DNA of 64,000 nt from contig JAHLLQ010000002.1 in the NCBI GenBank assembly GCA_020444065.1, forward strand, positions 248,001 through 312,000. Direction: 5' to 3'. A program made the translations under genes and the position numbers. Source of the DNA: a bacterium (GTDB lineage Bacteria; Sumerlaeota; Sumerlaeia; SLMS01; JAHLLQ01). Positions 6,318 through 28,662 of this stretch are shown here, one piece after another; positions within the stretch are counted from its first letter, which is position 1; each line of letters begins with the position of its first letter. The notes under the pieces are model-generated. The model worked only from the letters and a program-made list of their open reading frames with translations, was not told the origin of the DNA and ran no database searches.

Positions 6318-6329
6318 TTCAGACAGGCC

Positions 6330-8533: not shown

Positions 8534-8635
8534 CTTGAAATCTCTGTATTGCTTGCTCAATTATAGCCTATGGCACCCAGGGGCGATTTTCTTACAAAAA
8601 AACAACCTCCGATGCCAGGCACCTCAAAATACTAA

Positions 8636-8663
8636 CGGGCGGTCTTCGTGTGAAGACCGCCCG
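8636..8663 (-). terminator. intrinsic terminator of the minor-pilin operon
   Basis: A perfect 12-bp stem (CGGGCGGTCTTC with GAAGACCGCCCG) with a 4-nt loop, followed on the minus strand by TTAGTATTTT. It lies about 40 nt after the stop codon at 8703. Confidence 0.8.
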
Positions 8664-8702
8664 CCTCGCTGGGTTGACCCCCCCAAATGGTTTACACAGG
8701 AC

Positions 8703-9275: not shown

Positions 9276-9290
9276 TTTGCTTCTCCTATC

Positions 9291-9761: not shown

Positions 9762-11740
9762 CCTGCAGCCTCCTCGTCCACGGCTTCTTCGCCCGTAGAC
9801 TGTCGGATTTCCCAAAGCGTGCGGCGCACGATGGATTGATTGATGTCCATCCAGCGGCCGTCCTTCATCCGGTAGTCGTACCAGACATCCGGACCGCCAT
9901 TGGAACCGTACCCGCGATCGGCAAACACGCTGCCGTAGACTGTGCGGTTACCCTTACAATCGATCTGCCCCCATGTATAGAGAAGACCGTTGTGGGAGAT
10001 CTTAAACTGCTTTGCCTCATCGTTGGTCGGCGAGCTTCCATCGGGCCGGGTCACGTATTCCACGCCGTCCTCGTCGAGAATCTCGTCGTAGCCAGGCGGA
10101 TTGCCTTGGCCGACAAAGGTCAGGTTCGCCGCCACCAGCATGGCGCCGCGACTGTGAACGCCGCCGCCGCCTTCCTGGATCGTCGACATGTTGCTGCCAT
10201 CGCCCATCGGGGGGCGGCTGAAGTAGGTGGAATCGATGACGGGAACGCCATGCTCATCCTTCGGCCCCGGATTCCCATTCGCATCCGTCGGGATCGTATC
10301 GATGAAGGCGAACTTCTCATCGAAGTTGTTGTAGTTGGGATCGTCGGGCTCGATTCCGAACCAGCCCGCCCAATCTTTGCCGACCATCTGGCCGTAATCC
10401 GAACTGCTTGGATCCTTCTCGATTCCGTAAATCGTTCCATCGGAATCGGTGAAGTAGTAGGGGAGGCCGGCCATTAGGAAAAACTTCTTCCATTCGCCGT
10501 AGTCGTACTCCGGCCAGTTGATGTTCTGGTTCTGCAGGAGATTCTCATAATCCGGGGGCGAGCTGCAGTTGCTTCCACCACCGGGCGCTCCGCCGCCGCC
10601 AGGCGTCGGCTTCTTCTTGTCGACAGACTTCTCCGCACAGTTGGCGCAAAGATCTGCCATATAGTAGGGCATCTCGTATTGCACTTCATCCGAAGCCGGG
10701 GCGGTCGTCGCGTAGCCGGTGCATTCGCGACCGTCTGCGTAGTTGTCATGCTCGTCGCGCAGCCAGCCCTCGGTCCGGACACGGAACCACGGGTCTTCGG
10801 TCTGGTTCGTGATTGAATTGCCATTACCGTTCGTCCAGAAATTCGGCGGCAACTCGATATCCTGATGAGCGATCAAATCGCCCCAATGGACGTTGTACTG
10901 CCCGGCGAACTCGACGCCGGTGCGGGAGACAATCGCGCCGGGCGACGCCAGATTCAGCGTCGGATTCATGGTCAGCAGCATCTCGACCGTCACGTTGATG
11001 TTGCCGCGCCTCTCGCCCGTTGTACCCGTCGCCACGACCTTTGTAATCACGCGCGTGTCGGTGGGCAGCTCGTCCTGGAAGTCGCTCGGATGGACCAACT
11101 GGAGCTTCGTGACGTATGCCAGGCGAGCCTGGCCATCAAGGATCTGAAGGACCGACGGCGGCAGATCCAGATCCTGGACGTCAACCGCATCGCTGAATTC
11201 CCACGTGGTCGTCGGGATCTTGCTCGTCAGGCTGACTTGGACATTACTTCCGGCCAGTTCGTCCTGGAAGTAGGTCCATTGTGTGATGACAGGTTCGGCC
11301 CCGGAAACCAGGTTCCCGTTCCCATCAAGAACGGGCAGGCCATCCTTGTCGACCGGATCGCCGTACGAGTTCGTGTCGTATCCGAGGATGTAGGGCTCGA
11401 ACAGCGAGTAGTCGCCCGGGTGGAGTCCCGGATGCTCGAGGCCGTACGGGCTTGTTGCCTCATCATCGTAATCGTTCGGCACGGGGAAGTCGTCCACAGC
11501 GGCGACGAAATTATCGGGGTTGTTGAACCAGTCGACGATCTGCTCGACCCCCGATTCGGCCGAGTAAAAAGCATAGAGACGCGCGCGGTCGCGCACGGAG
11601 GCGCGCTGCGCAGTGGTTACGTAGCCCAGCCAGGAGACCGTCGACGCGCCCGCCAGCGAGATGAGGATAATCGAGTAAAGAAGGACAGATCCCTTCCGCC
11701 TCATAGTGTTCGGGCGTGGTCTGCGAGTCAGAAGCTTCAT
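9758..11740 (-). CDS. large PilX-like pseudopilin/pilus-assembly protein
   Basis: 660 residues from ATG 11740 (GGAG about 10 nt upstream; the frame is open beyond this into the promoter region). MRRKG then SVLLYSIILISLAGASTVSWLGYV, followed by RARLYAFYSAESGVEQIVDWFNNPDNF, aligns closely with the 6330-8114 protein, with Gly17 in the same position. The two also share YGxxxKIPTxTxE, PWFxxRTEG and DYENLxQxQN blocks. This copy has an extra linker with CANC, a Gly/Pro-rich stretch and a further Cys, absent from the paralogue. It heads the minor-pilin operon. Confidence 0.7.
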   Translation of the reverse strand: MKLLTRRPRPNTMRRKGSVLLYSIILISLAGASTVSWLGYVTTAQRASVRDRARLYAFYSAESGVEQIVDWFNNPDNFVAAVDDFPVPNDYDDEATSPYGLEHPGLHPGDYSLFEPYILGYDTNSYGDPVDKDGLPVLDGNGNLVSGAEPVITQWTYFQDELAGSNVQVSLTSKIPTTTWEFSDAVDVQDLDLPPSVLQILDGQARLAYVTKLQLVHPSDFQDELPTDTRVITKVVATGTTGERRGNINVTVEMLLTMNPTLNLASPGAIVSRTGVEFAGQYNVHWGDLIAHQDIELPPNFWTNGNGNSITNQTEDPWFRVRTEGWLRDEHDNYADGRECTGYATTAPASDEVQYEMPYYMADLCANCAEKSVDKKKPTPGGGGAPGGGSNCSSPPDYENLLQNQNINWPEYDYGEWKKFFLMAGLPYYFTDSDGTIYGIEKDPSSSDYGQMVGKDWAGWFGIEPDDPNYNNFDEKFAFIDTIPTDANGNPGPKDEHGVPVIDSTYFSRPPMGDGSNMSTIQEGGGGVHSRGAMLVAANLTFVGQGNPPGYDEILDEDGVEYVTRPDGSSPTNDEAKQFKISHNGLLYTWGQIDCKGNRTVYGSVFADRGYGSNGGPDVWYDYRMKDGRWMDINQSIVRRTLWEIRQSTGEEAVDEEAAG

Positions 11741-11783
11741 GGCACACTCTCCATTAGAGCGGAGTATCGTTTCCCAATCCAGA

Positions 11784-11811
11784 AGGGTACAAAACCCCTT
11801 CGGAATGTCAA
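11784..11811 (-). promoter_or_regulatory. candidate sigma70 promoter of the minor-pilin operon
   Basis: On the minus strand a perfect TTGACA (11811-11806) is followed after 16 nt by TACCCT (11789-11784), a weak -10. The predicted start near 11777 would give a 37-nt leader before ATG 11740. Confidence 0.4.
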
Positions 11812-11841
11812 ATGCCATTAGGCTTGAGATCTTTTACATTT

Positions 11842-11860: not shown

Positions 11861-12199
11861 CTTGGGAGGGAGAGGAAGAGCGAGGAATCGGATGGGGCGG
11901 CGTTTCGTTTCTCAGGAACAAATTGCCGCGCGCTTCGAGTGGGGATTGACCCGCATCCTCTGCTTTCTCATTGTGGGGCCGGTGACGCTTTTCTGTGCAG
12001 GTGTGTGAAGAATTCTTCCCACTTGCGTCAGGCCTTTTCCGGCGTTGGCCGCGATGGTCCCTGAATCTGCAAGAGGCAGGCCGTTCGCGAGGTTTTTTGG
12101 AGGGCAAGGCATTGGGATTTCTTGCTTTCTGTTGCGGGAAAATCGCGTGAAAAAAAATTCTTCGCTCATGGCATTAACCGAATGAAAGGGCACGAACGG
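11861..12199. other. intergenic region upstream of the sigma factor gene
   Basis: No convincing gene. It holds a second palindrome, GAAGAATTCTTC (12007-12018), and an A-tract with TTCTTCGC just upstream of the sigma factor start (about 12150-12166). No strong -35/-10 pair was found for the plus-strand operon, which could fit autoregulation by its own ECF sigma factor. Confidence 0.4.
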
Positions 12200-12790
12200 A
12201 TGCGAGAGTCGGATAGCCCGGCCATCAGCCCCGAACTCTTTGTGCGCTTTCAGGCCGGCGATGCCGAGGCAATGAAGGCTGTTGTCCAGGCATATCGCAA
12301 GCGGCTGATCGGCTTTATCCGGCTCTTTACCTGGAGCCGGGAGATCGCCGAAGAGATCGCTCAGGAGGTGTTTCTGACCACCTTCCAGGACCGTCGGAAG
12401 ATCCACGGTCCGGCGAAGATCAGGCCCTGGTTGTTCACCATCGCACGGCGGAAGATCGCGCGTGAGATGGGCAAGGGGAAGTACAAGGCGGAGATCGCCG
12501 TCGAAGGCGACGTGCTCTGTCAACTTGCCCTCGAAGTGCCGCCCCAGCAGCTTGGCGACCTGCAAGTGCAAGAACTCGGATTGCATTTGCGGCAAGCGCT
12601 GGACAACCTTCGGCCAAAGGAACGAGAAGTCCTGATGCTTCGCTTCTTCGGTGACCTGCAGATCAAGGAAATTGCTGCAGTTATGGACATTCCGATGGGG
12701 TCGGTGGGCGTAAACATCAGCAGGGCGTTGGCAAAGGTTCGGAAGCATTTGGAGGAACAAGGACTAAGATTCGAGGACTTCGTTTCATGA
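12200..12790 (+). CDS. ECF-family RNA polymerase sigma factor
   Basis: About 196 residues from ATG 12200 (GAAAGGG about 9 nt upstream; the in-frame ATG 12182 has no ribosome-binding site). Region 2 covers MKAVVQAYRKRLIGFIRLF through REIAEEIAQEVFLTTFQ and RPWLFTIARRKI. Region 4 is LRPKEREVLMLRFFGDLQIKEIAAVMDIPMGSVGVNISRALAKVRKHL. The absence of regions 1 and 3 and the short length define the ECF class. The gene overlaps the next by four bases (ATGA). A FecR-like membrane protein directly downstream suggests a cell-surface signalling pair controlling this operon or the divergent pilin operon. Confidence 0.9.
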   Translation: MRESDSPAISPELFVRFQAGDAEAMKAVVQAYRKRLIGFIRLFTWSREIAEEIAQEVFLTTFQDRRKIHGPAKIRPWLFTIARRKIAREMGKGKYKAEIAVEGDVLCQLALEVPPQQLGDLQVQELGLHLRQALDNLRPKEREVLMLRFFGDLQIKEIAAVMDIPMGSVGVNISRALAKVRKHLEEQGLRFEDFVS

Positions 12791-13596
12791 GCGCGCACGA
12801 CGATAACAAGGACAGGCAACTGGGTCACTACCTGGAACGACTGGGTGAAGCCTGGGCCGGGCGAGCCGACGCCAGCGACGAGTTCGTTGCGCGTTTCGAG
12901 GCTCGCCTGACCATGGAGCGGACCCGCCCGAGCGCTCGGATTCTGTCTGTCCCCGGACTCGTTCGTTGGTCCGCCGCGGCGGCCACCACCATCGCTGCGT
13001 GCATTGCCTTGATCTTCGTGTTGACCCCGATCGGCGACGGCCGGATCGGAGCCGTCGCATACGGCCAGGGCGACTTCGCCGCAAGCGGCTCCAAGTCCCA
13101 GGCTCGCCTCGTCGGGAACTCCTCGTTGATCACCGGAGAAGATGGTCGCGCAATGGCCACTCTGGATGATGAACGGGTGGCTCTGTTTATTGATCAGAAT
13201 TCCAGTATACGCCTAAATTCGGAAGAAAAGGTCAACTTGACCCGTGGTAGGGTCTGGATTAGCGTCGAACCAAATTCCGGATTTTTTGCCGTCGAGACGC
13301 CGGATTGTGTCGTAGAAGTGAAAGGAACGACCTTCGGGGTTGAGATCGGCGAGAACGGTACAGAGGTTGCTCTAGCAAGCGGAGAAGTCTGGCTCGCCCA
13401 AGGGAAGCATTTCACGCGAATGTCGGCGGGATCGATTGCGAAAATCGCAAAAGATTCCGAGCCGGAGTTGATGCGGGCTAACGGAGATTTGGTACCGACG
13501 TGGGCACTCGATCTATACGCGAACGCCGAAGCGGCTCGTGCCGCCGAATTCTTCCCCTCCGCCGCTCCCGGCGTGCGGGGTCGGCCTTCACGCTGA
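12787..13596 (+). CDS. FecR-domain membrane protein, probable regulator of the sigma factor
   Basis: 269 residues: a cytoplasmic N-terminus of about 58 residues, one transmembrane helix (~59-80, SAAAATTIAACIALIFVLTP), then a periplasmic FecR-like domain. The FecR part is visible as ATLDDERVALFIDQNSSIRL, LTRGRVWISVE, FAVETPDCVVEVKGTTFGVEI and EVALASGEVWLAQG. Proteins of this layout act as anti-sigma factors or signal relays for ECF sigmas; the coupled position after one supports this. No zinc-binding HxxxCxxC is visible in the N-terminus. The last 97 nt overlap the next gene in another frame. Confidence 0.8.
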   Translation: MSAHDDNKDRQLGHYLERLGEAWAGRADASDEFVARFEARLTMERTRPSARILSVPGLVRWSAAAATTIAACIALIFVLTPIGDGRIGAVAYGQGDFAASGSKSQARLVGNSSLITGEDGRAMATLDDERVALFIDQNSSIRLNSEEKVNLTRGRVWISVEPNSGFFAVETPDCVVEVKGTTFGVEIGENGTEVALASGEVWLAQGKHFTRMSAGSIAKIAKDSEPELMRANGDLVPTWALDLYANAEAARAAEFFPSAAPGVRGRPSR

Positions 13597-14237
13597 TCGA
13601 ACTGCTCGTTGTCGTTGCCATCATTGCAATCCTGGCAGCCATCGCGGTGCCGAACTTCCTCGAAGCGCAAACCCGGGGAAAGGTCGCAGCTGCCCAGTCT
13701 AACATTCGGACGATAACAGGCGCGCTCGAGGCTTTTGCCGTGGACAACAATCGGTATCCCGCCACCCAACCGGTCGTGCCGGGGGATCCGCTGGCTCTGT
13801 TATCGGACTTCCAACTGTCGGCCCTCACCACACCCATTTCGTACATCTCGCCTGGTGCCTTCCACGATCCTTTCGGGACCGTGCGGGCGCGGGCGGCGTT
13901 CCCGAACAAGCGGGACGTGAACCGCGGCGGCGACTTTCCGACGCTGACGCAACCCAATGAGCAACGGAGCTTGCTGTACTACCATTACCCGTCTTTGTCC
14001 CAACGTCTGAACGTCGAGGAGATTAACATCTTTGGGGCCTCGGTGATCAGCATTGGGCCGGACATCCAGGATTCACTTGGTGCCTATCGCCCGTTCAGCG
14101 CCGCATTCTTCGTGAATGAGTTGCAGGACGAGGGGATTCGCCATCCGGTGGATACCATGTATGATCCGACGAATGGGACGGTCAGTATTGGAGATATCGG
14201 CGGTTACACTGGGGAAGCCCGCCGGTTTCGCGAGTGA
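13500..14237 (+). CDS. GspG-like major pseudopilin
   Basis: 245 residues, probably from GTG 13500 (GGAG upstream), overlapping the FecR-like gene by 97 nt. The prepilin signature is RRAGSAFTLIELLVVVAIIAIL followed by AAIAVPNFLEAQTRGKVAAAQSN, typical of GspG-type pseudopilins; cleavage after Ala30 would place Glu at +5. The C-terminus has DPFG, then SVISIGPD, then YDPTNGTVSIGDIGGY, the motif order that replaces the calcium-binding end of GspG in some lineages. The same order recurs in the four secreted proteins at 20488-28623. Encoding next to a sigma/FecR pair and a large secreted propeller is unusual. Confidence 0.8.
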   Translation: MGTRSIRERRSGSCRRILPLRRSRRAGSAFTLIELLVVVAIIAILAAIAVPNFLEAQTRGKVAAAQSNIRTITGALEAFAVDNNRYPATQPVVPGDPLALLSDFQLSALTTPISYISPGAFHDPFGTVRARAAFPNKRDVNRGGDFPTLTQPNEQRSLLYYHYPSLSQRLNVEEINIFGASVISIGPDIQDSLGAYRPFSAAFFVNELQDEGIRHPVDTMYDPTNGTVSIGDIGGYTGEARRFRE

Positions 14238-16798
14238 TGTCTGAAATACGCGCTTTGCTTTTCTCCGCGCTCCTCTTGTCATCGCCTGCGCTGGCGGACA
14301 CGCTTGAGTTGTACGCGGGATTGACTCCCCAGCACGCAGTGGCCGCGGACTTCAACCGCGACGGCCGCATGGATTTGGCTGTCGCCTCAACGTTCGACGA
14401 TTCGGTCACGATCATCCATCGGACGGGCTCGGGGAATTACGTAACCACCCAGACGATCATGGTCGGCGCAAATTCCTTCCCGCCCTCGAACTTCCCGCGT
14501 TTTCTGACGATCGGGGACTTCAACAACGACGGGGCCGCCGATCTGACGGTGATCTGCTCCGGCAACTACGCTTTCTCTTACGAGCCCAGCATTCAGACGT
14601 TGATGAATGATGGGAACGGACTCTTCCTTCCGGTCCAGCCGAGTGCCGTAACCCCTATCTTCGATTCACCCCTGATGCCCGTTCAGATGGTTGTTGGCCA
14701 GTTCACGAACGACAGCCTGGACGATGTTGCGTTGGCGAATCTGAACAGCGGAACGATTCGCATCCTGGCCGGCGACGGAGCCGGGCGATTCGCAATCGGG
14801 CCAGAGATCGACCTGGCCAGCACCTCCGATGGCCCATACGATCTGGCCGTGGCAGATCTCGATCACGATGGCCTGGACGACCTGGTGGCTGTGACCGAAG
14901 GCGATTGCTACGTCGTGCGCCAGTCCCCCGCTGGTGTTTTCAACTCCCCTGTGGCCTATTCAGTTCCTGCCGGAGCGGCGCAGTTCCATGCCGTGTACCT
15001 CGACGACTACGATCAAGACGGCCAATGGGATGCCGCTATCGCCGATCGGAACAGCCGCGTGGTGCGGTTGTTCGGGATTGATGCCGTCGGCGGGACGCTT
15101 GGCAACGATGTGTTGAACGATGCCTCCTTGAATGGCTGCTCCGATATCCTGAGCATCAATTGGGATGGAGACTGGAAGCCCGATATCGCCGTGGCGAATC
15201 TCGACGGCGATACCGTGACGGTCTTTGGCTCCGAAGGGCTCGTGGACGTTATTCCGACCGCCCTTGAGCCGCGCCGCATCGAATCGGCCGACATGGACGG
15301 GAACGGCCGCCTTGACCTTATTACTGCAAACGAAGGCGACGAGTCCGTCTCGTCCAACCCGGACGTGAATATCATTCTCAACGCGGGCTCGCTTCATGAG
15401 CCCGGCAGCGCGATTCGTCGTGGCCAGTTGCCCGTTGCAGGTCGCCTCGGGCTGCGCCTTTACCGGCCGCACGCTCTCGGCGTGGGATCGCCGACGCGGG
15501 TCTGGGCGGTTGAGAACTCACGCCGCGCGATCCAGGAGTTCAACCCCAGCCCGAACCTGAACGCGAATCTCGCTGCCCGTCTTGGCGATCGTCTCGAATT
15601 CGATTTCGATATTGCCGGCTTGGCGATGCTCGACCACCGTGAAGGTTTCGTGGTCGAGCGCTGGGCCGGTCGAATTCACGATTTCACTGTTGCCGCAGGA
15701 ATCCAGAGCACCGTGACCTTGGCAGAAACGCCCGGCGATCTTGGCTTCGCGGGGTTGGCTCGCGATCCGGCGACCGGCGACTTCTATGTCTCCGATCCTT
15801 CCTCAGGCAGTATCCTTCGATTCGATTCCACCGGAACTCTGCTCGGCTCGTTCTCTCTTGGCGGCGTGCCGGCAGGCGCCATGGCATGGATGCCGGCAAA
15901 CAGTCGGCTTTACGTCGTTCAGCCAGGACGAACACAGGTTCGAGCATACGATGCGGCCGGCACCTTGGATGCAGCCGCCAGCTTCGATCTCGGCGCGTCG
16001 GGAAGCATCCTGCAGAATGAAGGCCTTGCCGGTGTCGGCAAGGTCTCGAACAAAGATGAGCTCTATCTACTGACTACGAATGGGATTCTTGCGCACGCGA
16101 GTCTTGACGGAACGATCCAGGATGTTGTGTCCATCTCGCCAGCCTCGGAAGTCATCGCCATGACTTATGATACGACGAACGGGCTATTGTTCGCGCTCGG
16201 TAACGATGCCCACGTCACAGAGATGAGCGTCACGACATCGGACGATGGGCGCCTCTACTCGCTGTGGCCCGCGGTGGTTGCAGACCCGACGTTTGTCCCC
16301 GCTGGAATCGCCTACGACTCGATCTCTGAGAATTTCCTCGTCAGCGACCGGACAGCGCCTCGGTATGCGCGCTTCGCTTCCAACGGGAACTTCCTTGGAT
16401 TCGAAGATTACAGTTCGACAATCGACGTTGCCGTTTCCGGCGGTTTCGATCTGGATGTTCAGACGGGTGACATGTTCCTGCGTGACGTTCTCGGAGTCGA
16501 GGCGACAACGACGGCGGATTCGTACCCCGTTCCTCGCTCGCCCATTACCGACCTCGCTTATCGGATGGGTTCGGTAGCTGTCGGTCTTCCGAATCCAAGC
16601 GAGGCTCTCGTGATCCCGACCAACGGTGTCGACGAGCCCTACGGCGTGAATTTGCCCGAGATCTTCCTGGGCGGCGGGCTGGCTTTCATCGACGACAACA
16701 CCATTCTTCACCTTGGAACGGTCAACGCCGAACACATGACCGCCCTGATTGTCGCTCCGCCGGACCCGACAGGCGTTTCTGACTGGTCCCTTTACTAA
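14237..16798 (+). CDS. secreted beta-propeller protein with FG-GAP/VCBS-like and NHL-like repeats
   Basis: About 853 residues from ATG 14237 (GTG 14234 also possible), overlapping the pilin stop. The signal peptide ends SSPALA. Residues ~36-365 carry about seven repeats of the form ADFNRDGxxDLAVA (for example GDFNNDGAADLTV, ADLDHDGLDDLVAV, ADMDGNGRLDLITA), typical calcium-binding FG-GAP/VCBS blades. Residues ~480-760 form a second set of NHL/SMP-like repeats such as GLARDPATGDFYVSDPSSGSILRFD and GIAYDSISENFLVSD. It is the last gene of the sigma-FecR-pilin operon and is followed by a terminator. A surface-exposed binding role or a pilus-associated substrate is inferred. Confidence 0.75.
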   Translation: MSEIRALLFSALLLSSPALADTLELYAGLTPQHAVAADFNRDGRMDLAVASTFDDSVTIIHRTGSGNYVTTQTIMVGANSFPPSNFPRFLTIGDFNNDGAADLTVICSGNYAFSYEPSIQTLMNDGNGLFLPVQPSAVTPIFDSPLMPVQMVVGQFTNDSLDDVALANLNSGTIRILAGDGAGRFAIGPEIDLASTSDGPYDLAVADLDHDGLDDLVAVTEGDCYVVRQSPAGVFNSPVAYSVPAGAAQFHAVYLDDYDQDGQWDAAIADRNSRVVRLFGIDAVGGTLGNDVLNDASLNGCSDILSINWDGDWKPDIAVANLDGDTVTVFGSEGLVDVIPTALEPRRIESADMDGNGRLDLITANEGDESVSSNPDVNIILNAGSLHEPGSAIRRGQLPVAGRLGLRLYRPHALGVGSPTRVWAVENSRRAIQEFNPSPNLNANLAARLGDRLEFDFDIAGLAMLDHREGFVVERWAGRIHDFTVAAGIQSTVTLAETPGDLGFAGLARDPATGDFYVSDPSSGSILRFDSTGTLLGSFSLGGVPAGAMAWMPANSRLYVVQPGRTQVRAYDAAGTLDAAASFDLGASGSILQNEGLAGVGKVSNKDELYLLTTNGILAHASLDGTIQDVVSISPASEVIAMTYDTTNGLLFALGNDAHVTEMSVTTSDDGRLYSLWPAVVADPTFVPAGIAYDSISENFLVSDRTAPRYARFASNGNFLGFEDYSSTIDVAVSGGFDLDVQTGDMFLRDVLGVEATTTADSYPVPRSPITDLAYRMGSVAVGLPNPSEALVIPTNGVDEPYGVNLPEIFLGGGLAFIDDNTILHLGTVNAEHMTALIVAPPDPTGVSDWSLY

Positions 16799-19074: not shown

Positions 19075-20481
19075 ATGGCGCGCTACGTTTCATCGGAAGG
19101 CATTCGCGATATCATCTGCGCTCGGGCGACCGCACCGGGGGCGGGGGCAATCGCGATCGTTCGCCTGAGCGGAAACGGCTGTCACGACCTGGCGCGTTCA
19201 GTTTTTCGTCCATACGCAGGCGATCTCGCCGACCCAGATCCAGGGCGCATGATCCTCGGTCATGTTTGCCAGCCAGAGGGGGAGCGCATCGAGGAGGGGT
19301 TTGCCATCTTCTGGCGCGGACCCCGTTCATACACTGGCGAGGATATGGTCGAGTTCCAAACCCACGGCAGCCCGGTCGGAGTCTCGCAGGTCCTGGAGGC
19401 CTGCCAGGTCGCTGGCGCACGCCTGGCGCGGCCTGGAGAATTCACACGGCGTGCCTATTTGAATGGGAAGATGGATCTCGCGCAGGCGGAGGCTGTCTGT
19501 GACCTGATCTCAGCGCATACGGAGGCCGCTGCGCGGGCGGCACTGGCGCAACTCGGTGGCGGTCTGTCGGATCGGCTCGAAGCCATCCGCGATCGCCTGG
19601 TGCCGGTCGCAGCCGAACTCGAAGCCTCGGTCGATTACCCGGAGGAAGGACTGGAGTTCGCGACGCGCGATCGATTGCTCGCGGCAATCGAGGAATCGCG
19701 CAGAGAACTCGGCCGCCTGCTCGAGTCGGCGCAGCGTGGGACACACCTGCGTGACGGCGTTCGCCTGGTGCTCGGCGGTCGACCAAATGCCGGGAAGTCG
19801 AGCCTGTTCAATCTGCTCGTGCGGCGAGAGCGCGCGCTGGTGACGCCTCATCCCGGCACAACGCGCGACACCGTGGAGGCTGAATTCGATCTGGCTGGCA
19901 TCCCGGTGACGATCGTGGACACGGCGGGATTGCGCGCGGATGCTGGGGAGATCGAAGCAATGGGCATCGAGCGTGCCCTCGGCGAGTTTCGAGCCGCCGA
20001 TCTGGTGCTGTTCCTGATCGATGCCTCCGGACCCGATCCTCGCGCGATCGAGGAGTACTCGCACGTCAGCGATCGTCCGCACTTCGTTGTGGCCAACAAA
20101 CTCGACGCGGCCAATGCGGCCGAAGCGGCCGCGCTGCCCGATCGATTCCACGGTCCCGGGCGACGGGGATTCCTGGCTCTCTCAGCAAAAACGAGGGACG
20201 GAGTCGCAGAGCTCGAACGGCGACTTGTCGATTTCCTGGGCCGGGCTGAGGAACGCGCGGAAGGGGCGTTGGTCACCAATCGCCGTCACGTCGACGCCAT
20301 TCGCACTGCGGCGCAGGAGCTTGTGTCCGCGGCTGAGGGACTGGCTGCCGATCAGAGCCCCGAACTGCTCGTCGTCAGTCTCACCGAGGCCATCGGTTCG
20401 CTCGACACGATAACGGGCCGCCAGGGATTGGACGAAGATGTCCTGGACGCCATCTTTGCCACCTTCTGTCTCGGGAAGTAA
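19075..20481 (+). CDS. mnmE: tRNA uridine-5-carboxymethylaminomethyl modification GTPase
   Basis: 468 residues. With MnmG it modifies the wobble uridine of several tRNAs using a folate-bound one-carbon unit. The N-terminal domain starts DIICARATAPGAGAIAIVRLSG. The inserted G domain has GRPNAGKSS (G1), TTRDTVE (G2), DTAGLR (G3), NKLD (G4) and a SAK-like G5. The C-terminus is FCLGK, with the conserved Cys used in catalysis (usually FCIGK). It appears monocistronic, with a terminator upstream and a convergent gene 6 nt after its stop. Confidence 0.97.
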   Translation: MARYVSSEGIRDIICARATAPGAGAIAIVRLSGNGCHDLARSVFRPYAGDLADPDPGRMILGHVCQPEGERIEEGFAIFWRGPRSYTGEDMVEFQTHGSPVGVSQVLEACQVAGARLARPGEFTRRAYLNGKMDLAQAEAVCDLISAHTEAAARAALAQLGGGLSDRLEAIRDRLVPVAAELEASVDYPEEGLEFATRDRLLAAIEESRRELGRLLESAQRGTHLRDGVRLVLGGRPNAGKSSLFNLLVRRERALVTPHPGTTRDTVEAEFDLAGIPVTIVDTAGLRADAGEIEAMGIERALGEFRAADLVLFLIDASGPDPRAIEEYSHVSDRPHFVVANKLDAANAAEAAALPDRFHGPGRRGFLALSAKTRDGVAELERRLVDFLGRAEERAEGALVTNRRHVDAIRTAAQELVSAAEGLAADQSPELLVVSLTEAIGSLDTITGRQGLDEDVLDAIFATFCLGK

Positions 20482-20487: not shown

Positions 20488-22581
20488 TCAATCCCACGGG
20501 TTGCGATCCGTCGGATCGGCGGTATTCATGAAGATATCGCCGGCGCTCTTGATGCCGTTCGTGGGATCGTAGACTTGACCGATGCTGAGTTGTCGACGGT
20601 AGAGGTAGTACTCTCCCGAGCGCGCCAAGCCGTCTCCAGAGTCCAAGCCTTCGATGTCGAATGCCTCACCCGTTGTCTCATCGAGTTCACCGAGCACAGC
20701 TTGTCCCTCCGGCGGGGGAGCAGAGCCTCTGCAACCGTCCTGAATCCACTGCCGATAGCGCTCCTTCGATTCCGGCGTCTCTACAGTGATCACGGGTTTC
20801 ATGACACGAGGGGGTGCTGGGCCTCGCTTCCCTTTCTTCGCCCATTCCGCAAAACGCGCGCGCGACTCGGCCGTCTCCACTTCCTTCACTCCGGTCGTCC
20901 GCTCATCAATCTTCCAATCGGGACCGACAGAGATAATCCATGCAGGATCGGTATTCGTGATCGTATAGCTACAGTATACGCCGGGTGCGCAGACATCGTA
21001 CGGGAGACCGTTCGGGAATTGCTCAACCAGTCCCGTCAGCGTTGTGGCGAGTTGCCCCTTTGGGGGGAACGGGTACTTGCGCTCGGCTGGAACATCGACA
21101 AAGATATCACCTCGATCGCTGGTGAGGTTTCTGTCGAACTTGATGGCAGCGTGATCGTCTTTGCCGTCGGGCCCCAGGCTGTAGACTGCAAAGACTTCGT
21201 CCCGCTCTGGAACAATGCCGAACCGGATCATTTCGCCATTCGGAGCGTACGGGTCATCCGGCAAGCCATCGGGAAGCATCAACTCGAAGTCCTCCGGCGT
21301 TCGAGGCCAATCGTTCGTGATCAGATAGTGATGCCTTGCCGCGATGGCTGCTACCGTGGTTGCCGCGATTGCCAGTCGCTGTAGCCGCTCCTTCTCCACA
21401 CCATTGAAATCACTATCGCCCAGGTAGAACTTCTCCCAGCCGCTGGCGCCTGCGCGCACAAGCGATGCCTCATCGAGATGCGCTTGCCTGATCCTTGGGA
21501 ATTCCGCAGCGATCTCATCCGCTGTTTCCATTCCATCGAGAAATGCCAACTCAAGACCTCCCCAAGCATTTCCGCGAATCACGGCTCCCACCGCGCACTT
21601 CCCGATTTCGTTTCCTTCTTCAGACATCTTCGCGCCGAACTGATGGACACCGAACAGGATATCGAGGGCCCGCTCGCGTTCGCCACGGATCAGCGCGAAG
21701 TCGGCCTCAACGCACGCAGCACGCGCCGCATCGCGAAGTGGAAAGGGGCTCTTTGCATCCCTCATCACCATTGGCTGATTCGGTGAACGCGTTGTGTAAT
21801 CGTGCGTAACGGCTGCGAATCGATCGAGTAGATCCTCTGTCGAAGGGCCAACGGGTGAACCATCTTCGAAGTCCGATCCGAGGAGTGCTGAGATGTTCTT
21901 GCCTTCCTGATCCAGGCGGCGAGTCCCTCTGGTTCGTTGCAGAGATTCGATTGCGAATTCATCGGCGAGGAATCCGGTGTTCCCGAAGCTGTCCTCGTAA
22001 GACTTGATCAACTCATCGCACCGTTCATTGTCCTGCGTTGTCAGTGCGAGATCGATTTCTGCCAGTCGTATCAACCGATTCTTGTTGTATGGGCGGCGCA
22101 ACTCCATCATCACAGACCGCGACTTGTCCAAGTCTCTCTCTTTCCAGAGTTTCAGGAAGTCCACGAACTGCGGATCCGGAACACGCATCATGAACAGAGG
22201 AATGCGCTCCTCAGCCTCCAGCTTTGCCAACATCCGCAAGTCGGGCTCCATTTCCTTTCGCGATGTCCAAATCAGATCGTAGCCATCACCGGTTGCGGAT
22301 TCGTCGAGCAATATCCAGCGGGCCATTCCTGCTCCATCGTCATTTCCAATCCGATGCCCGGCAGAAACAAGCCATCGCTTTCCGATTCGTATGAATTCGT
22401 AGCCCGTTCGATAGGACGGCGCGTTCAAGACTTCGACTTCCGCCTTCCCGAGCGATGGTCTCAGACTGATGCACTCGTGACTCATCCGAAAATAGTAGTA
22501 TTCCTCGCCATCACCGCATCCGGCCAGCAGCGCGATCACCGTACTCAGCAGCAGTACCTGGATATACAATGAACGGCGCAT
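20488..22581 (-). CDS. lipoprotein of a tandem paralogous family with pilin-signature modules
   Basis: 697 residues from ATG 22581; the lipobox LLAGC places the lipidated Cys at 22. After an N-terminal beta-rich part and a helical middle (FMMRVPDPQFVDF, NRLIRLAEIDLAL, RRLDQEGKNISALL) come two C-terminal modules. Module 1 (~430-495) reads LPDGLPDDPYAPNG, then VYSLGPDGKDD, then DRGDIF. Module 2 (~522-690) reads FPNGLPYD, then SVGPD, then YDPTNGIKSAGDIF. The motif order DP-SxGPD-(YDPTNG)-GDI is the one at the end of the GspG-like pilin at 13500. This is the most diverged of the four and lies 86 nt after the previous one. Function unknown. Confidence 0.75.
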   Translation of the reverse strand: MRRSLYIQVLLLSTVIALLAGCGDGEEYYYFRMSHECISLRPSLGKAEVEVLNAPSYRTGYEFIRIGKRWLVSAGHRIGNDDGAGMARWILLDESATGDGYDLIWTSRKEMEPDLRMLAKLEAEERIPLFMMRVPDPQFVDFLKLWKERDLDKSRSVMMELRRPYNKNRLIRLAEIDLALTTQDNERCDELIKSYEDSFGNTGFLADEFAIESLQRTRGTRRLDQEGKNISALLGSDFEDGSPVGPSTEDLLDRFAAVTHDYTTRSPNQPMVMRDAKSPFPLRDAARAACVEADFALIRGERERALDILFGVHQFGAKMSEEGNEIGKCAVGAVIRGNAWGGLELAFLDGMETADEIAAEFPRIRQAHLDEASLVRAGASGWEKFYLGDSDFNGVEKERLQRLAIAATTVAAIAARHHYLITNDWPRTPEDFELMLPDGLPDDPYAPNGEMIRFGIVPERDEVFAVYSLGPDGKDDHAAIKFDRNLTSDRGDIFVDVPAERKYPFPPKGQLATTLTGLVEQFPNGLPYDVCAPGVYCSYTITNTDPAWIISVGPDWKIDERTTGVKEVETAESRARFAEWAKKGKRGPAPPRVMKPVITVETPESKERYRQWIQDGCRGSAPPPEGQAVLGELDETTGEAFDIEGLDSGDGLARSGEYYLYRRQLSIGQVYDPTNGIKSAGDIFMNTADPTDRNPWD

Positions 22582-22667
22582 GCGCCTGCTCTCTCTCGGT
22601 TCCTTAGATGAACACACGTTGCAGGAATCCGCCTCACCGAGCAAGAGGGATCATTCTGCGCAACGTG

Positions 22668-24566
22668 TCACTTCAGAATCGGCGGCGTGCGATCGCTCGG
22701 ATCGGCTGTGTCGAAGAACAAGTCACCGCTGCTGACGACGCCATTCGTGGGATCGTACATCGGTTCGATCGTCATCTCCGAATACAAGGTGTAGAAGCCG
22801 TCCGATGTCGTGATCCCATTTCCGGGTGCGATCCCATCCAGACTACTGAGTTTGTTTCCCCATGTGCCTCCATGCTTGTAGGCTGAGTCTGTATCGGGGC
22901 CGGACGACACAATCCAGGCCGGATCCGTGTTGGTGACGGTGTAGCTCTCGCCGCGCGTGTCCGCGAACGGATCGGGCGGCAGACCGTTCGGAAACTGATT
23001 CATGATGCCTCGTAGAGTCCTACTGAGTCGGTGTTCCGACGGAAATGGATATTCACGTTCGCGTGGGATGCGCAGAAAGATATCGCCGGGGCTGAGCGAA
23101 CCGTTGGTCGGATCATACGCAAGACTGGCCTGCTGATCCTTCTTGTCCGGGCCAATGCTGTAGAGGGTCCACTGATCGAGATCTTCAATGAACCGCAGCG
23201 GAGAGCCTTTGACATCGAACGGATCCACGTCCGGTCCATCCGGCAGCAGCGGGGAGAAATCCCCCCTTCCCAACGGGAATTCACCCGTTTCCAGAAAATG
23301 GTACTTAGCCGCAGCAGCCGTGTGCAGCAGCGACAGATGCGTAAACGCCGCTGTACGGCGGAACCAGACTTCCCCGCCCAAGTACTGTGGCGGGCATTCA
23401 GACCACCAATCGACTTCTCGCGGTTGCTGAAGTTCTACCTCCTCCTGCCATGCCGCATCGAGCCGTGGGAACTCGTTTCTGATCTGATCCGGAGCCGTCA
23501 GTGCATCCAGATAAGCGTATCCGAGACTTGGCAGCAGCGTGGCTCGACAGGCGACACCAATCAGTTCCGCGATCAGTGTCTCGGAATCGCGAGAGAGAAT
23601 TTGCGCCATCGTATACGTGCCAAGCAGCAAATCCAATGCATCGCCGGATCGTCCCTGCATCATCGCGAAATCGGCCTCGATGCGTGCGACCTTAGTCGCG
23701 ACCTGGAATCCCAGGAAGTTGAGAATTCCCTCTCTCGGCATGATTAGCGGGCGATCGAGGGAGCGCGCAGTGTTCCGCAGAGTGACGCTAGCCAGGTAGG
23801 CGAGCATCTGATCCAACGGCAACCGCAGCTCCGTGCTTCTCCCAATCAACCCGGGAAGCAATGCGCGGATACTCGTGCCCTCTCTTGCCATGCGACGGGC
23901 TTCACATCGGTCGTGCATCGCAGCGATTGCCTGTCGATCGAAAGCACGACCGCTCTCGCTAAAATCCCGTGTGTAGGCGCCGGCCAGAAGGACGAGACGC
24001 TCATCATCGCCGAGCGCCAATGCGGTGTCGAACTGAGCGATCCGAGACAGCCGATCGCCCGGGTGATCGGCCACCAGTTGCCGCGCCAGCACGGAGGCTT
24101 CCTCAAGATCCCTGCTATTCCACAACTCGATCAGATCGGCGAATCGCTCGTCAGAGACACGCATCAGCGTGGATTCGATGCGATCCACAGCAATCAGAGA
24201 CGCGAGGACATCATCCGTGGGTACCTCGGGCATTCCCGTCGCGATGAGATCGTACCCCAGCCCTAACGGCGAGGGATCGAGTAGATACCAAGTATCATAG
24301 CTGCAATCCCAATGCTCCTGCTCGACCTCCGTGTGAACCTGAAGAAGAAACCGGCCGCGTATGCTCCGCAGCGAGTGCTCCATCGTCATGTTCGTATCGC
24401 CATAGGGTTCACTCGCCTCGGCCACAACCCATCCGTCGACTGTCTTCTCGACACGAAGGAGCACACCGCCGCGCACGTAGTACAACGTCGACCCCTCCGC
24501 CCAGGCCGCTGCGTTTGGAAGCATCACCGCGAATAGGACAAGCCAACCGATGGCGAACTTCTTCAT
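22668..24566 (-). CDS. secreted protein of the tandem paralogous family
   Basis: 632 residues. It differs from its three siblings in having an ordinary signal peptide (MKKFAIGW...NAAAWA) with no lipobox Cys. The middle region keeps the family helices (DRLSRIAQFDTALALGDDE, ARRMAREGTSIRALLPG, TAPDQIRNEFPRLDAAW). Module 1 (~437-497): LLPDGPDVDPFD, LYSIGPDKKDQ, YDPTNGSLSPGDIF. Module 2 (~524-616): FPNGLPPDPF, SSGPD, YDPTNGVVSSGDLFF, ending in DPSDRTPP. Its start overlaps the stop of the upstream paralogue (ATGA). It may be released to the periplasm while the others are membrane-anchored. Function unknown. Confidence 0.75.
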   Translation of the reverse strand: MKKFAIGWLVLFAVMLPNAAAWAEGSTLYYVRGGVLLRVEKTVDGWVVAEASEPYGDTNMTMEHSLRSIRGRFLLQVHTEVEQEHWDCSYDTWYLLDPSPLGLGYDLIATGMPEVPTDDVLASLIAVDRIESTLMRVSDERFADLIELWNSRDLEEASVLARQLVADHPGDRLSRIAQFDTALALGDDERLVLLAGAYTRDFSESGRAFDRQAIAAMHDRCEARRMAREGTSIRALLPGLIGRSTELRLPLDQMLAYLASVTLRNTARSLDRPLIMPREGILNFLGFQVATKVARIEADFAMMQGRSGDALDLLLGTYTMAQILSRDSETLIAELIGVACRATLLPSLGYAYLDALTAPDQIRNEFPRLDAAWQEEVELQQPREVDWWSECPPQYLGGEVWFRRTAAFTHLSLLHTAAAAKYHFLETGEFPLGRGDFSPLLPDGPDVDPFDVKGSPLRFIEDLDQWTLYSIGPDKKDQQASLAYDPTNGSLSPGDIFLRIPREREYPFPSEHRLSRTLRGIMNQFPNGLPPDPFADTRGESYTVTNTDPAWIVSSGPDTDSAYKHGGTWGNKLSSLDGIAPGNGITTSDGFYTLYSEMTIEPMYDPTNGVVSSGDLFFDTADPSDRTPPILK

Positions 24567-26512
24567 TGTTCAAACTCCTGATTGCGGAATGGCGGCGTGC
24601 GATCACTCGGATCGGCCATGTTGAAGAACAAGTCGCCATCGCTTCTGATACCGTTCGTAGGGTCATACGGTGCGTCGAGGAGCATCGTGTCTCGCAGGAT
24701 GTATTGTCTTCCGAGCGTGGCTATTCCGTCCCCCTTTTTGATCCGGTGGGCCTGGTCAACGAGCGAGTCAATCACCTGGCTGCTCTCCTCTTCCGCGTCC
24801 ATATTCGGACCAACAGAAAGAATCAAAGCAGGATCGGTGTGCGTGATGGTGTAGCTTGCGATGCGATTTCTTGCGAATGGATCCGGCGGAAGGCCATTCG
24901 GGAATTGCTTCAATAACTCCGGTGCGGTCGTTGCCAACTCCCCAGGGGGTGGAAACGGATACTCGCGTTCGCGCGGAATGTCCGTGAAGATGTCGCCGGC
25001 GCTGATTGTTCCATTCGTTGGATCGTACGAGAACGTGGCCTGTTGATCTGCCTCATCCGGACCGAGGCTGTAGATTGTGAAGACATTTTCCCGTTCCGGA
25101 ACGAGGCGAGTACGCAGGCGGCGCCCTTCAGGATCGAAAGGATCCGGGTCGGGCCCAGCCGGCAGCAGGGGAGCGAAGTCTCGCGGACTCGAAGGGAACT
25201 CGCCGGACCTGAAGAGGCGGTGTTTCACCGGGGCCGCAGAGTGTACGAGAGCGGTATGCGTCAGGGAGACCTTCTTGCGCGTGTCGTACTCGAGTCTGTT
25301 CCATCGCTCGATCTGCCAGAAATCCCATGTTTGACCAGGCTTCCTTCCCTGGATCTTCAGTTCCTGCTTGTATGCATCGTTGATGACCGGAAAGAAGTAA
25401 GCGATCTGATCCGAGGTCGTCATTGCATTCAGGTATACGGTTTCAATTCCCCGAATTGAGATCGAGCGTACGGCGATACCGATCAGATCATCGATGATAT
25501 CATCTCGATCTCGAGAAAAGAGAAGTCCGGCCTGCCAACTTCCCTTCAGGGTATGGATTGGCCCATCGACTTTTCCTTGCAACATTCTGGAATCGGCAAT
25601 GACCCGTGCAAGTTTCGCGCGCATCGCGAGATTCAGGTATTTGGGCAGATCGTCATTGTCCGTGAGAATCAGGTGGTTCTTCGAGTTGCAGGTCGTGTAT
25701 TCGGGTGTCAGCGATCGAAAATGTTCCATCATTTCTTCAATCGATTCCGATGATCCCGAATCGCTGTCATCCTCCGACTCAAGAATGCTGCAGAGATTCT
25801 TGCCTTCTCGATCCAACCGTCGGGCGTCTTGCGTTTTGCGCATGGCTTCTATAGCCAACTGATCGACCTGGAGTCCCGTGGCCTCGAACTCGCGGGCATA
25901 GGAATCGATCAGGCGATCGTAACGCACTTCGTTTTCGACGCCCATGGCGGCATCGATCTCCGCCAGTCGGAACAGACGATCCTCGGGATGACGTTGGGCA
26001 AGGTCTGTGGCGAGAGCTTCCGCCTCTTCGAACCGACCTTCCCGCCACGCTGCAAACAGATCGAGAAACTTCGGATCGTGGATCTCCATCATGAAGAGTT
26101 CGACGCGACCTTCGGAATGTTCAAAACTCTCCAGTATTTCTTCTTTGGAGGGGAGATATCCCCCCCAGTAGTAGACCGCGCGCCCGATAGCATCGTAACC
26201 AAGGCCGGTTGGTGATTCCTCCAGCAGGTACCAGCTTCGGGTTTTCGGTTCTTCCTTCTCCGGGACAAAGGCCCGCGCAGCCAGAATGATCCGATCGCCT
26301 TCCCGTTCCGCTTCGAATTCCCAGCGATACTCCAGATCGGAATCTGGTGGACCGAGTTTCTCTACATCGTATCCATCCGCCGTCTCCGTCAGACGAATCG
26401 GTTCGCCCAGCCGCAAGTAGTACATCGGCGCCTCCTGCTCTTCACCACACCCCCCAAGGCAAGCCAGCCCAGCCAGCAGCAGGACGCCGATCCAAAGCTT
26501 GGAAGACTTCAT
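24563..26512 (-). CDS. lipoprotein of the tandem paralogous family
   Basis: 649 residues with a lipobox LGGC (Cys22) in a signal peptide nearly identical at DNA level to that of the next upstream paralogue. Family blocks: an N-terminal domain with YYLRLGEPIRLTE and WYLLEESPTGLGYDA, then FMMEIHDPKFLDLFAAWREGRF, DRLFRLAEIDAAM and RRLDREGKNLCSILES. Module 1 (~447-508): LLPAGPDPDPFDPEG, IYSLGPDEADQQA, YDPTNGTISAGDIF. Module 2 (~536-630): FPNGLPPDPF, SVGPN, YDPTNGIRSDGDLFF. Four-base overlaps with both neighbours show strict translational coupling. Function unknown. Confidence 0.75.
   Translation of the reverse strand: MKSSKLWIGVLLLAGLACLGGCGEEQEAPMYYLRLGEPIRLTETADGYDVEKLGPPDSDLEYRWEFEAEREGDRIILAARAFVPEKEEPKTRSWYLLEESPTGLGYDAIGRAVYYWGGYLPSKEEILESFEHSEGRVELFMMEIHDPKFLDLFAAWREGRFEEAEALATDLAQRHPEDRLFRLAEIDAAMGVENEVRYDRLIDSYAREFEATGLQVDQLAIEAMRKTQDARRLDREGKNLCSILESEDDSDSGSSESIEEMMEHFRSLTPEYTTCNSKNHLILTDNDDLPKYLNLAMRAKLARVIADSRMLQGKVDGPIHTLKGSWQAGLLFSRDRDDIIDDLIGIAVRSISIRGIETVYLNAMTTSDQIAYFFPVINDAYKQELKIQGRKPGQTWDFWQIERWNRLEYDTRKKVSLTHTALVHSAAPVKHRLFRSGEFPSSPRDFAPLLPAGPDPDPFDPEGRRLRTRLVPERENVFTIYSLGPDEADQQATFSYDPTNGTISAGDIFTDIPREREYPFPPPGELATTAPELLKQFPNGLPPDPFARNRIASYTITHTDPALILSVGPNMDAEEESSQVIDSLVDQAHRIKKGDGIATLGRQYILRDTMLLDAPYDPTNGIRSDGDLFFNMADPSDRTPPFRNQEFEQ
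24876..24970. repeat. 95-bp segment near-identical to 26966-27060
   Basis: Inside the paralogue at 24563. It matches 26966-27060 at 94 of 95 positions, while flanking coding sequence drops quickly to ordinary paralogue divergence. It encodes the strand between modules 1 and 2 (REREYPFPPPGEL ... FPNGLPPDP). Confidence 0.75.
26448..26512. repeat. 65-bp signal-peptide segment near-identical to 28559-28623
   Basis: The first 65 coding bases of the 24563 lipoprotein match those of the 26509 lipoprotein (28559-28623) at 63 of 65 positions, far above the match in the following mature part. It covers the signal peptide and lipobox. Confidence 0.75.
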
Positions 26513-28623
26513 GGCATATTCCCCCCGAATGAGTGAACGCCCGGGTCGGCCGTGTTGAAGAACAGGTTGCCGTCGCTGAGCAGGCCGTTTGTGGGATCGT
26601 AGTAAGGCTGGGACATCAGATCGCTGAGGACCACATACTGGCCGTCATAGACCGATACTCCGCGGCCCGGCTGAATGTCGCTAAACTGGAACTCTCCGAT
26701 TCGGCCCAGAGTGAAGACTCCATCGACCTTCTGGTCATCATCGGGATTATGCATGTCGCCAGACGGATACCACTCGTATCGATAGAATGGTTCCGGACCG
26801 GGACGGCCCGAACTGACCCATTCGTCATACTTCGCCTTCCATTCTTGTGATTCGCGCGGATACAGGAACTCGCCGCCGACCGTCATCTTCATGTCGGGTC
26901 CGCCAGAGAGGATCCAAGCTGGATCGCTCATCAGGATCGTGTAGCTGTTCCCTGACTTGTCTCTCAATGGATCCGGCGGAAGGCCATTCGGGAATTGCTT
27001 CAATAACTCCGGTGCGGTCGTTTCCAACTCCCCAGGGGGTGGAAACGGATACTCGCGTTCCCGTGGAATGTCCGTGAAGATGTCGCCGGTGCTGACTGTC
27101 CCATTCGAGGGATCGTACGAGATCGTGGCCTGCTGGTCTGCCTCGTCTGGACCGAGACTGTAGATCGCGAAGACATTTCCTCGCTCCGGCACGTGTCGAG
27201 TACGCAGTCGACGCCCGTCGGGATCGAAAGGATCCGGATCGGGCCCATCGGGCAGCAGGGGGGCGAAGTCTTCCGGCCGCTCCGGCATCTGGCCGCTCGC
27301 GAGGAAATGCTGCCTCGCCGCTGTAGCCGAGTGCGTGAGCGCCGTGAGTGTGAAGGCCACGTTCCCGCGCGTGTCGCACTCATTGAGAGTCTCGATATTC
27401 ATCTCCGTCGACTGCCAGTTCGGAGCGCGAGACTGCGCCTGTAGCGCGCGCTCTTGCCTGTACGCATCATCAATGACTGGAAAGAAGTAGGCGATCTGAT
27501 CGGATGTCGTCGTTGCATTCAGAAAGGCCCTTTGAAGGTCGCGCATCGCAAGTCTGCGGATGTTAATCCCAATCAGATCATGGATCAGATATCCACCGTC
27601 TCTCGAGAACAGAAGCCCCATCTGCCAGGCGCCTTTCAGAATGGAGATGGGTTGCTCGACCTGGCCCTGCATCATCGCAAAGTCCGACAGGACGCAGGCG
27701 AGCTTGGTTTGAATCAGCAGTGCAAAAAAACTGGGAATATCAGTCCCATCGGTGAGGACCAGGCATTCGTCGGGGTTGTGCACCGAATAATTCCGCGATG
27801 TTGTGCGGTATCGCAAGAGCACCGCATCAATCGGCTCGCTCGGTGTGTTTGGATCATTCGGGGCATTGGATTCGAAGGCTGAATGCAAATTCTTGCCTTC
27901 TCGGTTCAGGCGTCGCGCTTCCTGCGTTCGCCTCATCGATTCGATGGCGAGTTTGTCGGCTGGATGATCCGTCGTGCCGAAATCATTCACGTACGCCGTG
28001 ATCAATCGATCGTAACGGACCTCGTTGCCCACGAGCATGGCCGTGTCGATTTCCGCCATGCGAAACAACCGATCCTTCGGATGGCGCTGCACGAGTTCCA
28101 TTGCCAGTTGATTCGCATCGTCAAAACGTTTCTCACGCCAGGCCGTGAACAAGTCGAGAAACTTCGGATCGTGAACTTCCATCATGAAGAGCTCGCCGCG
28201 GCCGTCGGAGTTCTTCTTGATCGCCTCGAGCATGTCGTCAGGGGGCCATGGATCGTACGCTGGCACATACGAAATGCTCCCGGTGGCATCGTATCCCAGG
28301 CCAGAAGGCGACTCCTGGAGCAGGTAGCGCGTCGTCATCCGGAGTTCGCCATCCGGTGCGTAGCCCGTCTTCGAGATCGTTTTCGAGACGAGAACCCACT
28401 CCCCGTCGTACACCTCAAGATCGAACTGCCGCCGATACTGGACATCCGGTTTCAGGGGACTCAAGAGTTCGACTTTCGGACTATCCGGCACCTCAGAAAT
28501 CCGAATGATCTCGCCCAGACGGACGAAGTAGGTCTTCGGATCGCCGTTGCCTCCAGAACACCCCCCAAGGCACGCCAGCCCAGCCAGCAGCAGGACGCCG
28601 ATCCAAAGCTTGGAAGACCTCAT
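26509..28623 (-). CDS. lipoprotein, first gene of the tandem paralogous family
   Basis: 704 residues from ATG 28623 (GGGGGAG upstream), lipobox LGGC with Cys22. It shares with the 24563 protein the blocks FMMEVHDPKFLDLFTAWREKRF, DRLFRMAEIDTAM, RRLNREGKNLHS and TTSDQIAYFFPVIDDAY. Module 1 (~454-515): LLPDGPDPDPFDPDG, IYSLGPDEADQQA, YDPSNGTVSTGDIF. Module 2 (~544-690): FPNGLPPDP, SGGPD, a longer linker, then YDPTNGLLSDGNLFFNTAD. It heads the operon behind a likely promoter at 28663-28691. Function unknown; the modules recall pseudopilin C-terminal domains. Confidence 0.75.
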   Translation of the reverse strand: MRSSKLWIGVLLLAGLACLGGCSGGNGDPKTYFVRLGEIIRISEVPDSPKVELLSPLKPDVQYRRQFDLEVYDGEWVLVSKTISKTGYAPDGELRMTTRYLLQESPSGLGYDATGSISYVPAYDPWPPDDMLEAIKKNSDGRGELFMMEVHDPKFLDLFTAWREKRFDDANQLAMELVQRHPKDRLFRMAEIDTAMLVGNEVRYDRLITAYVNDFGTTDHPADKLAIESMRRTQEARRLNREGKNLHSAFESNAPNDPNTPSEPIDAVLLRYRTTSRNYSVHNPDECLVLTDGTDIPSFFALLIQTKLACVLSDFAMMQGQVEQPISILKGAWQMGLLFSRDGGYLIHDLIGINIRRLAMRDLQRAFLNATTTSDQIAYFFPVIDDAYRQERALQAQSRAPNWQSTEMNIETLNECDTRGNVAFTLTALTHSATAARQHFLASGQMPERPEDFAPLLPDGPDPDPFDPDGRRLRTRHVPERGNVFAIYSLGPDEADQQATISYDPSNGTVSTGDIFTDIPREREYPFPPPGELETTAPELLKQFPNGLPPDPLRDKSGNSYTILMSDPAWILSGGPDMKMTVGGEFLYPRESQEWKAKYDEWVSSGRPGPEPFYRYEWYPSGDMHNPDDDQKVDGVFTLGRIGEFQFSDIQPGRGVSVYDGQYVVLSDLMSQPYYDPTNGLLSDGNLFFNTADPGVHSFGGNMP
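26966..27060. repeat. 95-bp segment near-identical to 24876-24970
   Basis: Second copy of the segment, inside the 26509 gene, at the same place in the protein (between modules 1 and 2). Confidence 0.75.
28559..28623. repeat. 65-bp signal-peptide segment near-identical to 26448-26512
   Basis: Second copy of the signal-peptide segment, at the start of the 26509 gene. Confidence 0.75.
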
Positions 28624-28662
28624 CGCGTACTCCCCCTGAACGCGCGGTGATGGGAACATCAT

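Follow-up and report, generated by a model that had tools for sequence, protein, structure and literature searches.

The window, the whole stretch of 64,000 nucleotides that was analysed, comes from a 5.2-Mb Sumerlaeota genome and carries on its minus strand, at 20488-28662, four coupled paralogous genes of 632-718 codons each. Overlaps of 4 nt link the genes at 26509-28662, 24563-26512 and 22668-24566. The operon consists of these four genes only, with a convergent gene at 19075-20481, read as mnmE, on one side and a divergent HAD hydrolase on the other. The other three paralogues are 55, 38 and 37% identical to the protein encoded at 24563-26512. A lipobox is found in three of the four and a Sec signal peptide in the remaining one, and all are predicted to end in two modules of the kind that forms the periplasmic head of pilins:

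26509..28662, minus strand: paralogue 1, listed with 717 aa; lipoprotein signal LGGC followed by a beta domain, a TPR-like region and two predicted pilin-head modules
24563..26512, minus strand: paralogue 2, 649 aa; LGGC as lipoprotein signal; architecture as in paralogue 1; full-length model
22668..24566, minus strand: paralogue 3, 632 aa; Sec signal peptide, no lipobox; architecture as in paralogue 1
20488..22644, minus strand: paralogue 4, 718 aa as listed from TTG; lipobox LLAGC; same architecture, motifs degenerate
13500..14237, plus strand: prepilin used for comparison; class III signal, head of the same type; outside the paralogue operon

Paralogue 1 probably starts at Met14 of the listed ORF, at 28623, in agreement with the end given in an earlier, sequence-only reading of this DNA. 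The start of paralogue 4 is more probably the ATG at 22581 than the TTG at 22644.

Domain architecture of the four proteins

The domain boundaries follow an AlphaFold2 model of the 649-aa paralogue 2 built on 28 relatives (pLDDT 85.4, pTM 0.84):

26081..26425, minus strand: N-terminal beta domain, paralogue 2, residues 30-144; weak avidin-like fold resemblance
25313..26071, minus strand: TPR-like helical region, paralogue 2, residues 148-400
24968..25306, minus strand: module 1, paralogue 2, residues 403-515; predicted GspG-type head with alpha1-C helix, beta strands and loop
24617..24967, minus strand: conserved linker (REREYPFP..QFPNGLPPDPF) and module 2, paralogue 2, residues 516-632
27058..27396, minus strand: module 1, paralogue 1
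26557..27057, minus strand: linker and module 2, paralogue 1; long insert ahead of YDPTNG
23058..23387, minus strand: module 1, paralogue 3
22713..23057, minus strand: linker and module 2, paralogue 3
21082..21417, minus strand: module 1, paralogue 4; YDPTNG degenerate (FD-RNLTSDR)
20524..21081, minus strand: linker and module 2, paralogue 4; long insert ahead of YDPTNG

The model contains the N-terminal beta domain and the helical region that the sequence-only reading had placed before the modules. The TPR-like helices (148-363) are followed by a further helix (367-388) and by a 34-residue helix (403-436) that runs into module 1; module 2 is without a long helix of its own. A Pfam scan of the four paralogues returned no domain beyond weak TPR signals (TPR_14, E 0.055), and TPR_19 was matched at 1.3e-5 in one of 28 family members. 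The model weakly resembles TPR/BamD folds, and TPR folds dominate a Foldseek search with the whole protein, in which no match falls below 1e-3. Within the TPR-like region, at residues ~288-316 of paralogue 2 (window ~25565-25651), lies the stretch PNFLxxQvxaKvxRvxAdf, which resembles pilin PNFLEAQTRSKVSR and matches pilin PNFLEAQTRSKVSRAKAD at 94.6% (E 6.9e-8; 60 shuffles at most 1.2). This stretch is either a second pilin-derived segment or a case of convergence.

Both terminal modules present the motifs D-P-F/Y, S-x-G-P-D/N, YDPTNG and G-D/N-I/L-F in this order. Variants occur in module 2 of paralogue 1 (DPL and GNLF) and in paralogue 4, where module 1 reads FD-RNLTSDRGDIF and YDVCA replaces DPF in module 2. 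The two modules are mutually homologous in profile-profile comparison (99.3%, E 2.2e-20), which together with the ORFs and the export signals confirms the initial description of four coupled exported paralogues with duplicated modules. They are also the most conserved part of the family: mean pairwise identity is lowest in the beta domain (0.17) and the helical region (0.22), higher in module 1 (0.30-0.45) and highest in the module 2 core (0.52-0.53), and the residues invariant in 28 of 28 members, the start Met aside, all lie within the modules and their linker.

Relation of the modules to pilin heads

Profile and structure comparisons make it nearly certain that the modules descend from the head of a type IV or GspG-type prepilin. 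Against a profile of 29 prepilins from the same genome, module 1 matches across the whole region that follows the pilin tail (98.9-99.2%, with E 1.2e-19 at 99.2%) and module 2 matches at 98.1% probability; column shuffles reach at most 2.8% (1.2 for the 99.2% comparison) and the reversed alignment 0.1%. When the YDPTNG tail is cut from both sides, module 1 still scores 95.8% (E 7.5e-9) and module 2 79.5% (E 1.5e-5), with shuffle controls of at most 0.5, and the match also persists once the helix is removed. Modelled alone by AlphaFold2 (pLDDT 94.8), module 1 is predicted to fold as an alpha1-C helix packed on an antiparallel beta-sheet. In a Foldseek search of 350,542 PDB chains, the best 15 of its 46 matches are all GspG/EpsG/PulG or type IV pilins, with the GspG-type pseudopilins of Vibrio and E. 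coli and PulG among them. The best match is 3fu1_B (probability 0.90, TM 0.52/0.53), and the best E-value, 0.07, is modest; with the module profile against PDB sequences, GspG accounts for three of four matches, at E 0.7-1.2. The structure prediction and structure search called for by the sequence-only reading thus came out in favour of its view that the modules are GspG/pilin heads without the pilin tail.

The established models do not reach these proteins: PF08334 and TIGR01710 match none of the four paralogues, PF08334 none of 28 family members, and the N_methyl and IV_pilin_GFxxxE models likewise find no match in the four. The class III signal and hydrophobic alpha1-N are absent, and a lipobox or Sec signal peptide is present instead. 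Homology to pilins begins at "PNFLEAQTRxKVS"; the head alignment starts at pilin PNFLEAQTRSKVS, and one family member (L094) still reads NTLEAQTRHKVS. The helix start was placed by profile alignment and by a count of register, in which a few anchors (G315, G244, G294) landed on a later proline. A 34-residue ungapped pilin PSSM scan was discarded, as it placed the start unreliably, with the PNFL-like stretch of the helical region competing. In prepilins, 36 residues separate the PNF proline from the YP proline in 24 of 24 cases. Of 15 single-module proteins, nearly all of them from other phyla, nine have a proline at -36, and 19 of 28 Sumerlaeota family members have the pilin Glu (offset -32). 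From this register the head was taken together with its alpha1-C helix, and of the pilin nothing but alpha1-N, the polymerising half, and the prepilin signal has been lost.

The beta2-beta3 loop, equivalent to the calcium region described for GspG (PMC6692295), holds the invariant or nearly invariant residues D486, D489, D497, N500 and D507 (paralogue 2), and calcium stabilisation of the heads is plausible from these residues. With GspG/PulG/EpsG (PF08334 T2SSG; TIGR01710) the four proteins share the head order DP[WF]..S-x-G-x-D..D-I and the predicted fold, but they have neither class III signal peptide nor alpha1-N and carry two heads behind beta and TPR-like regions. The prepilins of Sumerlaeota have the same head, the YDPTNGTVSxGDI ending and the EAQTRxKVS helix start, and unlike the four paralogues they keep the FTLIELL..PNFLEAQ polymerising helix.

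Tail-less heads in the genome and in other bacteria

With 45 occurrences in the genome and none of the reversed pattern, the YDPTNG codon pattern is not due to chance. It is present in 40 of 40 Sumerlaeota genomes, where the reversed control matches none, and YDPTNG is a general pilin-head ending of the phylum. Sites of this type are found in 49 proteins of the genome, 33 of them prepilins and 16, including the four paralogues, without a canonical prepilin motif. The prepilin at 13500-14237 indeed ends in the same way as the paralogues, as had been pointed out, but it is one of 33 with an ending shared throughout the phylum, and no link to one nearby pseudopilin follows. On the GspG equivalog model it stays under the cut-off (52.3 vs 88.85 bits); the canonical GspG of the genome is at C4:221576, and there are also several T2SSF loci and secretins.

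The 16 proteins include TM-anchored ones, and their N-terminal parts are diverse and exported or membrane-anchored in appearance. In 13 of them the motif is no more than 62 residues from the C-terminus, in the other three (L015, L037, L056) the module is 217-1495 residues ahead of the end, and L076 has further module copies near its N-terminus. A secreted FecR-like protein with a 543-aa frame (L116, G000:C4:124029-124310) has a tail-less GspG head near its C-terminal end; it passes the PF08334 cut-off (45.7 bits), as does L076 (26.3 bits), another tail-less-head protein. A 1058-aa DUF4880/DUF3352-like protein has a tail-less head without YDPTNG, as on the FecR-like protein. The head thus appears to have been reused several times in this genome, on FecR-type, DUF4880/DUF3352-type and membrane-anchored proteins. 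The lipoprotein encoded at C5:91693 resembles the tail-less-head proteins in appearance, and in the middle of the 2623-aa frame of L056 (1677-9545, G000:C1) lies a pilin (IEWLIIGAIVAILAAISVPNFMEAQVRSKVSR ... YDPTNGTVSAGDI) that is apparently in frame. Five small membrane proteins with a pilin head, some of them paired, have a degraded or missing prepilin motif (L058, G000:C1:143414-144135; L160 and L034, G000:C3:567783-568735; L159; L046) and are apparent intermediates between prepilins and tail-less heads.

At 1e-10, a profile of the four paralogues matches 21 of 40 Sumerlaeota genomes, at full or near full length in 20 of the 21 and over one module only in the last (G012); copies are frequently in tandem. 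The 19 genomes without the family at this threshold all have YDPTNG sites, and presence of the family, set against YDPTNG counts, does not tell the competing readings of its role apart. The architecture thus occurs in about half of the 40 genomes, which answers the profile search proposed in the sequence-only reading; the nearby pilin genes that the search was also to find are not conserved (ten loci, see below). A related-loci scan with a 6-row alignment gave 10 loci, and a tblastn search against plasmids returned nothing matching the family.

The full-length double-module form was found in none of 346 genomes of other phyla. Partial matches to the profile occur in 17 of the 346 and largely consist of a TPR-like region and one C-terminal head without a prepilin signal. 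These single heads match module 1 at 99.7% (E 1.3e-25) and pilins at 97.3% (E 1.6e-11). A profile of 11 single-head sequences has matches in 41 of the 346 genomes; this count includes the ten genomes whose sequences went into the profile, and some of the matches are to short frames, possibly of prepilins. No family exceeded its cut-off in a Pfam scan of four of the single-head proteins. Members of this unnamed family (e.g. L184, L187, L188, L190, L195) share with the Sumerlaeota proteins the homologous head, the helical region and the absence of a prepilin signal, but have one head, usually no YDPTNG and no matching N-terminal beta domain; some are fused to membrane regions that start like ABC-2 permeases. 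The Sumerlaeota double-head proteins are an elaboration of this older helical-plus-single-head family.

Pfam holds no family that covers the double-head or the single-tail-less-head architecture, and a tail-less pilin head on exported non-pilin proteins was not found in the literature (a library without most subscription journals). The opinion that the architecture is undescribed therefore holds for Pfam and papers, whereas its helical-plus-single-head form proved widespread in other phyla. Modular pilins such as PilB of Streptococcus sanguinis, an intact N-terminal prepilin carrying an added domain (PMC8179133), also join a pilin module to other domains in one protein. In the proteins described here the order is reversed, with a tail-less head at the C-terminus of a non-pilin that lacks the class III signal. 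The pilin fold and pilins with added domains are known, and the tail-less head on exported non-pilins appears, within the literature covered, to be new.

Possible roles of the heads

Pilins are known chiefly as filament subunits. Without the polymerising helix and the prepilin-peptidase signal, the four proteins should be unable to enter a pilus or pseudopilus as subunits. We think it probable that they are exported, mostly lipid-anchored proteins which reuse pilin heads as an envelope scaffold or sensor. The periplasmic head of a prepilin, from the end of the hydrophobic alpha1-N half onward, would have been placed after a helical region of TPR-like type and doubled by a single duplication. 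The proteins are expected to sit in the envelope, where the heads may serve as a compact domain for protein interaction, probably stabilised by calcium, and the TPR-like region as a second interaction surface; domains and gene context point to the scaffold or sensor role.

It is unlikely, in our estimate, that the heads instead dock on a type IV pilus or T2SS pseudopilus, or in a secretin, as caps, plugs, competitors or accessory proteins. Such docking would be in keeping with their close match to the heads of the genome's own prepilins, with the 33 prepilins, canonical GspG, T2SSF loci and secretins encoded there, and with the strong conservation of the modules, which would also fit a pilus partner. 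However, pilin, ATPase, secretin and assembly genes are not conserved neighbours of the family in ten Sumerlaeota loci (a prepilin lies ~4 kb from the family gene in one of them), nor are filament genes conserved alongside the relatives in other phyla. The earlier suggestion that the proteins might cap, plug or compete with a pseudopilus finds no positive support here. Nearly half of the 40 Sumerlaeota genomes, all with YDPTNG sites, do without the family at 1e-10, and it is mainly through the alpha1-N helix, absent from these proteins, that pilins make their contacts within a filament. A domesticated, probably calcium-stabilised envelope interaction domain is the likelier reading. In one locus, an ABC ATPase gene is immediately upstream of the family gene on the same strand.

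Still less probable is a role of the head as a C-terminal sorting or secretion tag for a T2SS/T4P-like machine, with the proteins as cargo. The terminal position of the motif in most of the non-prepilin YDPTNG proteins and the diversity of their exported- or membrane-anchored-looking N-terminal parts would suit a tag, but the C-terminal place is the ancestral state, since prepilins themselves end there, modules also occur far from the end (L015, L037, L056) or near the N-terminus (L076), and three of the four proteins already have lipoprotein signals. Convergence, in which the folds would be unrelated and only a short motif resembling a calcium loop alike, is very improbable: YDPTNG is short and repeated and the Foldseek E-values are modest, but the match outlasts removal of YDPTNG and of the helix, and the whole head aligns with helix register kept and with pilins as all top structure matches.

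The contexts of the single-head genes bear on the proposed envelope role. Such genes stand behind ECF sigma-factor genes in G152, G289 and, by sequence, G384, and others lie in GntR/ABC-ATPase operons, fused to membrane regions (G289, G339); both contexts point, indirectly, to a domain for interaction or sensing in the envelope more than to a device specific to filaments. In the latter (L214 and L217), the single head is joined to a membrane region with an ABC-2 permease-like start (WKEWRE), beside GntR-regulator and ABC-ATPase genes. Pfam gives no match for the G289 N-terminus, which begins like an ABC-2 permease to judge from its first residues and the neighbouring genes.

The window itself holds, at 12122-16798 on the plus strand, translationally coupled genes for an ECF sigma factor, a protein of FecR type, a YDPTNG prepilin and an FG-GAP protein. 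Judged by motif, L043 also has FecR-like, prepilin and FG-GAP frames, and L032 has FecR-like and prepilin frames; in these cassettes pilins appear to be co-encoded with cell-surface signalling genes. Three large adjacent ORFs (6087-8063, 8130-9752 and 9758-11818; two on the plus strand, one on the minus) have no Pfam match at 0.001.

More tentatively, tail-less heads may constitute a large unrecognised class of extracytoplasmic domains over many bacterial phyla, serving recognition in envelope signalling and transport (ECF sigma and GntR/ABC operons) rather than filaments, with the Sumerlaeota double-head lipoproteins as the most elaborate branch. With a curated model of the tail-less head, many proteins now called hypothetical would receive an annotation. 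The arrangement is the reverse of that in modular pilins: exported lipoproteins have reused the head, two copies to a protein, after its separation from the polymerising tail, and the four proteins are a means of testing what a pilin head that is unable to polymerise can do.
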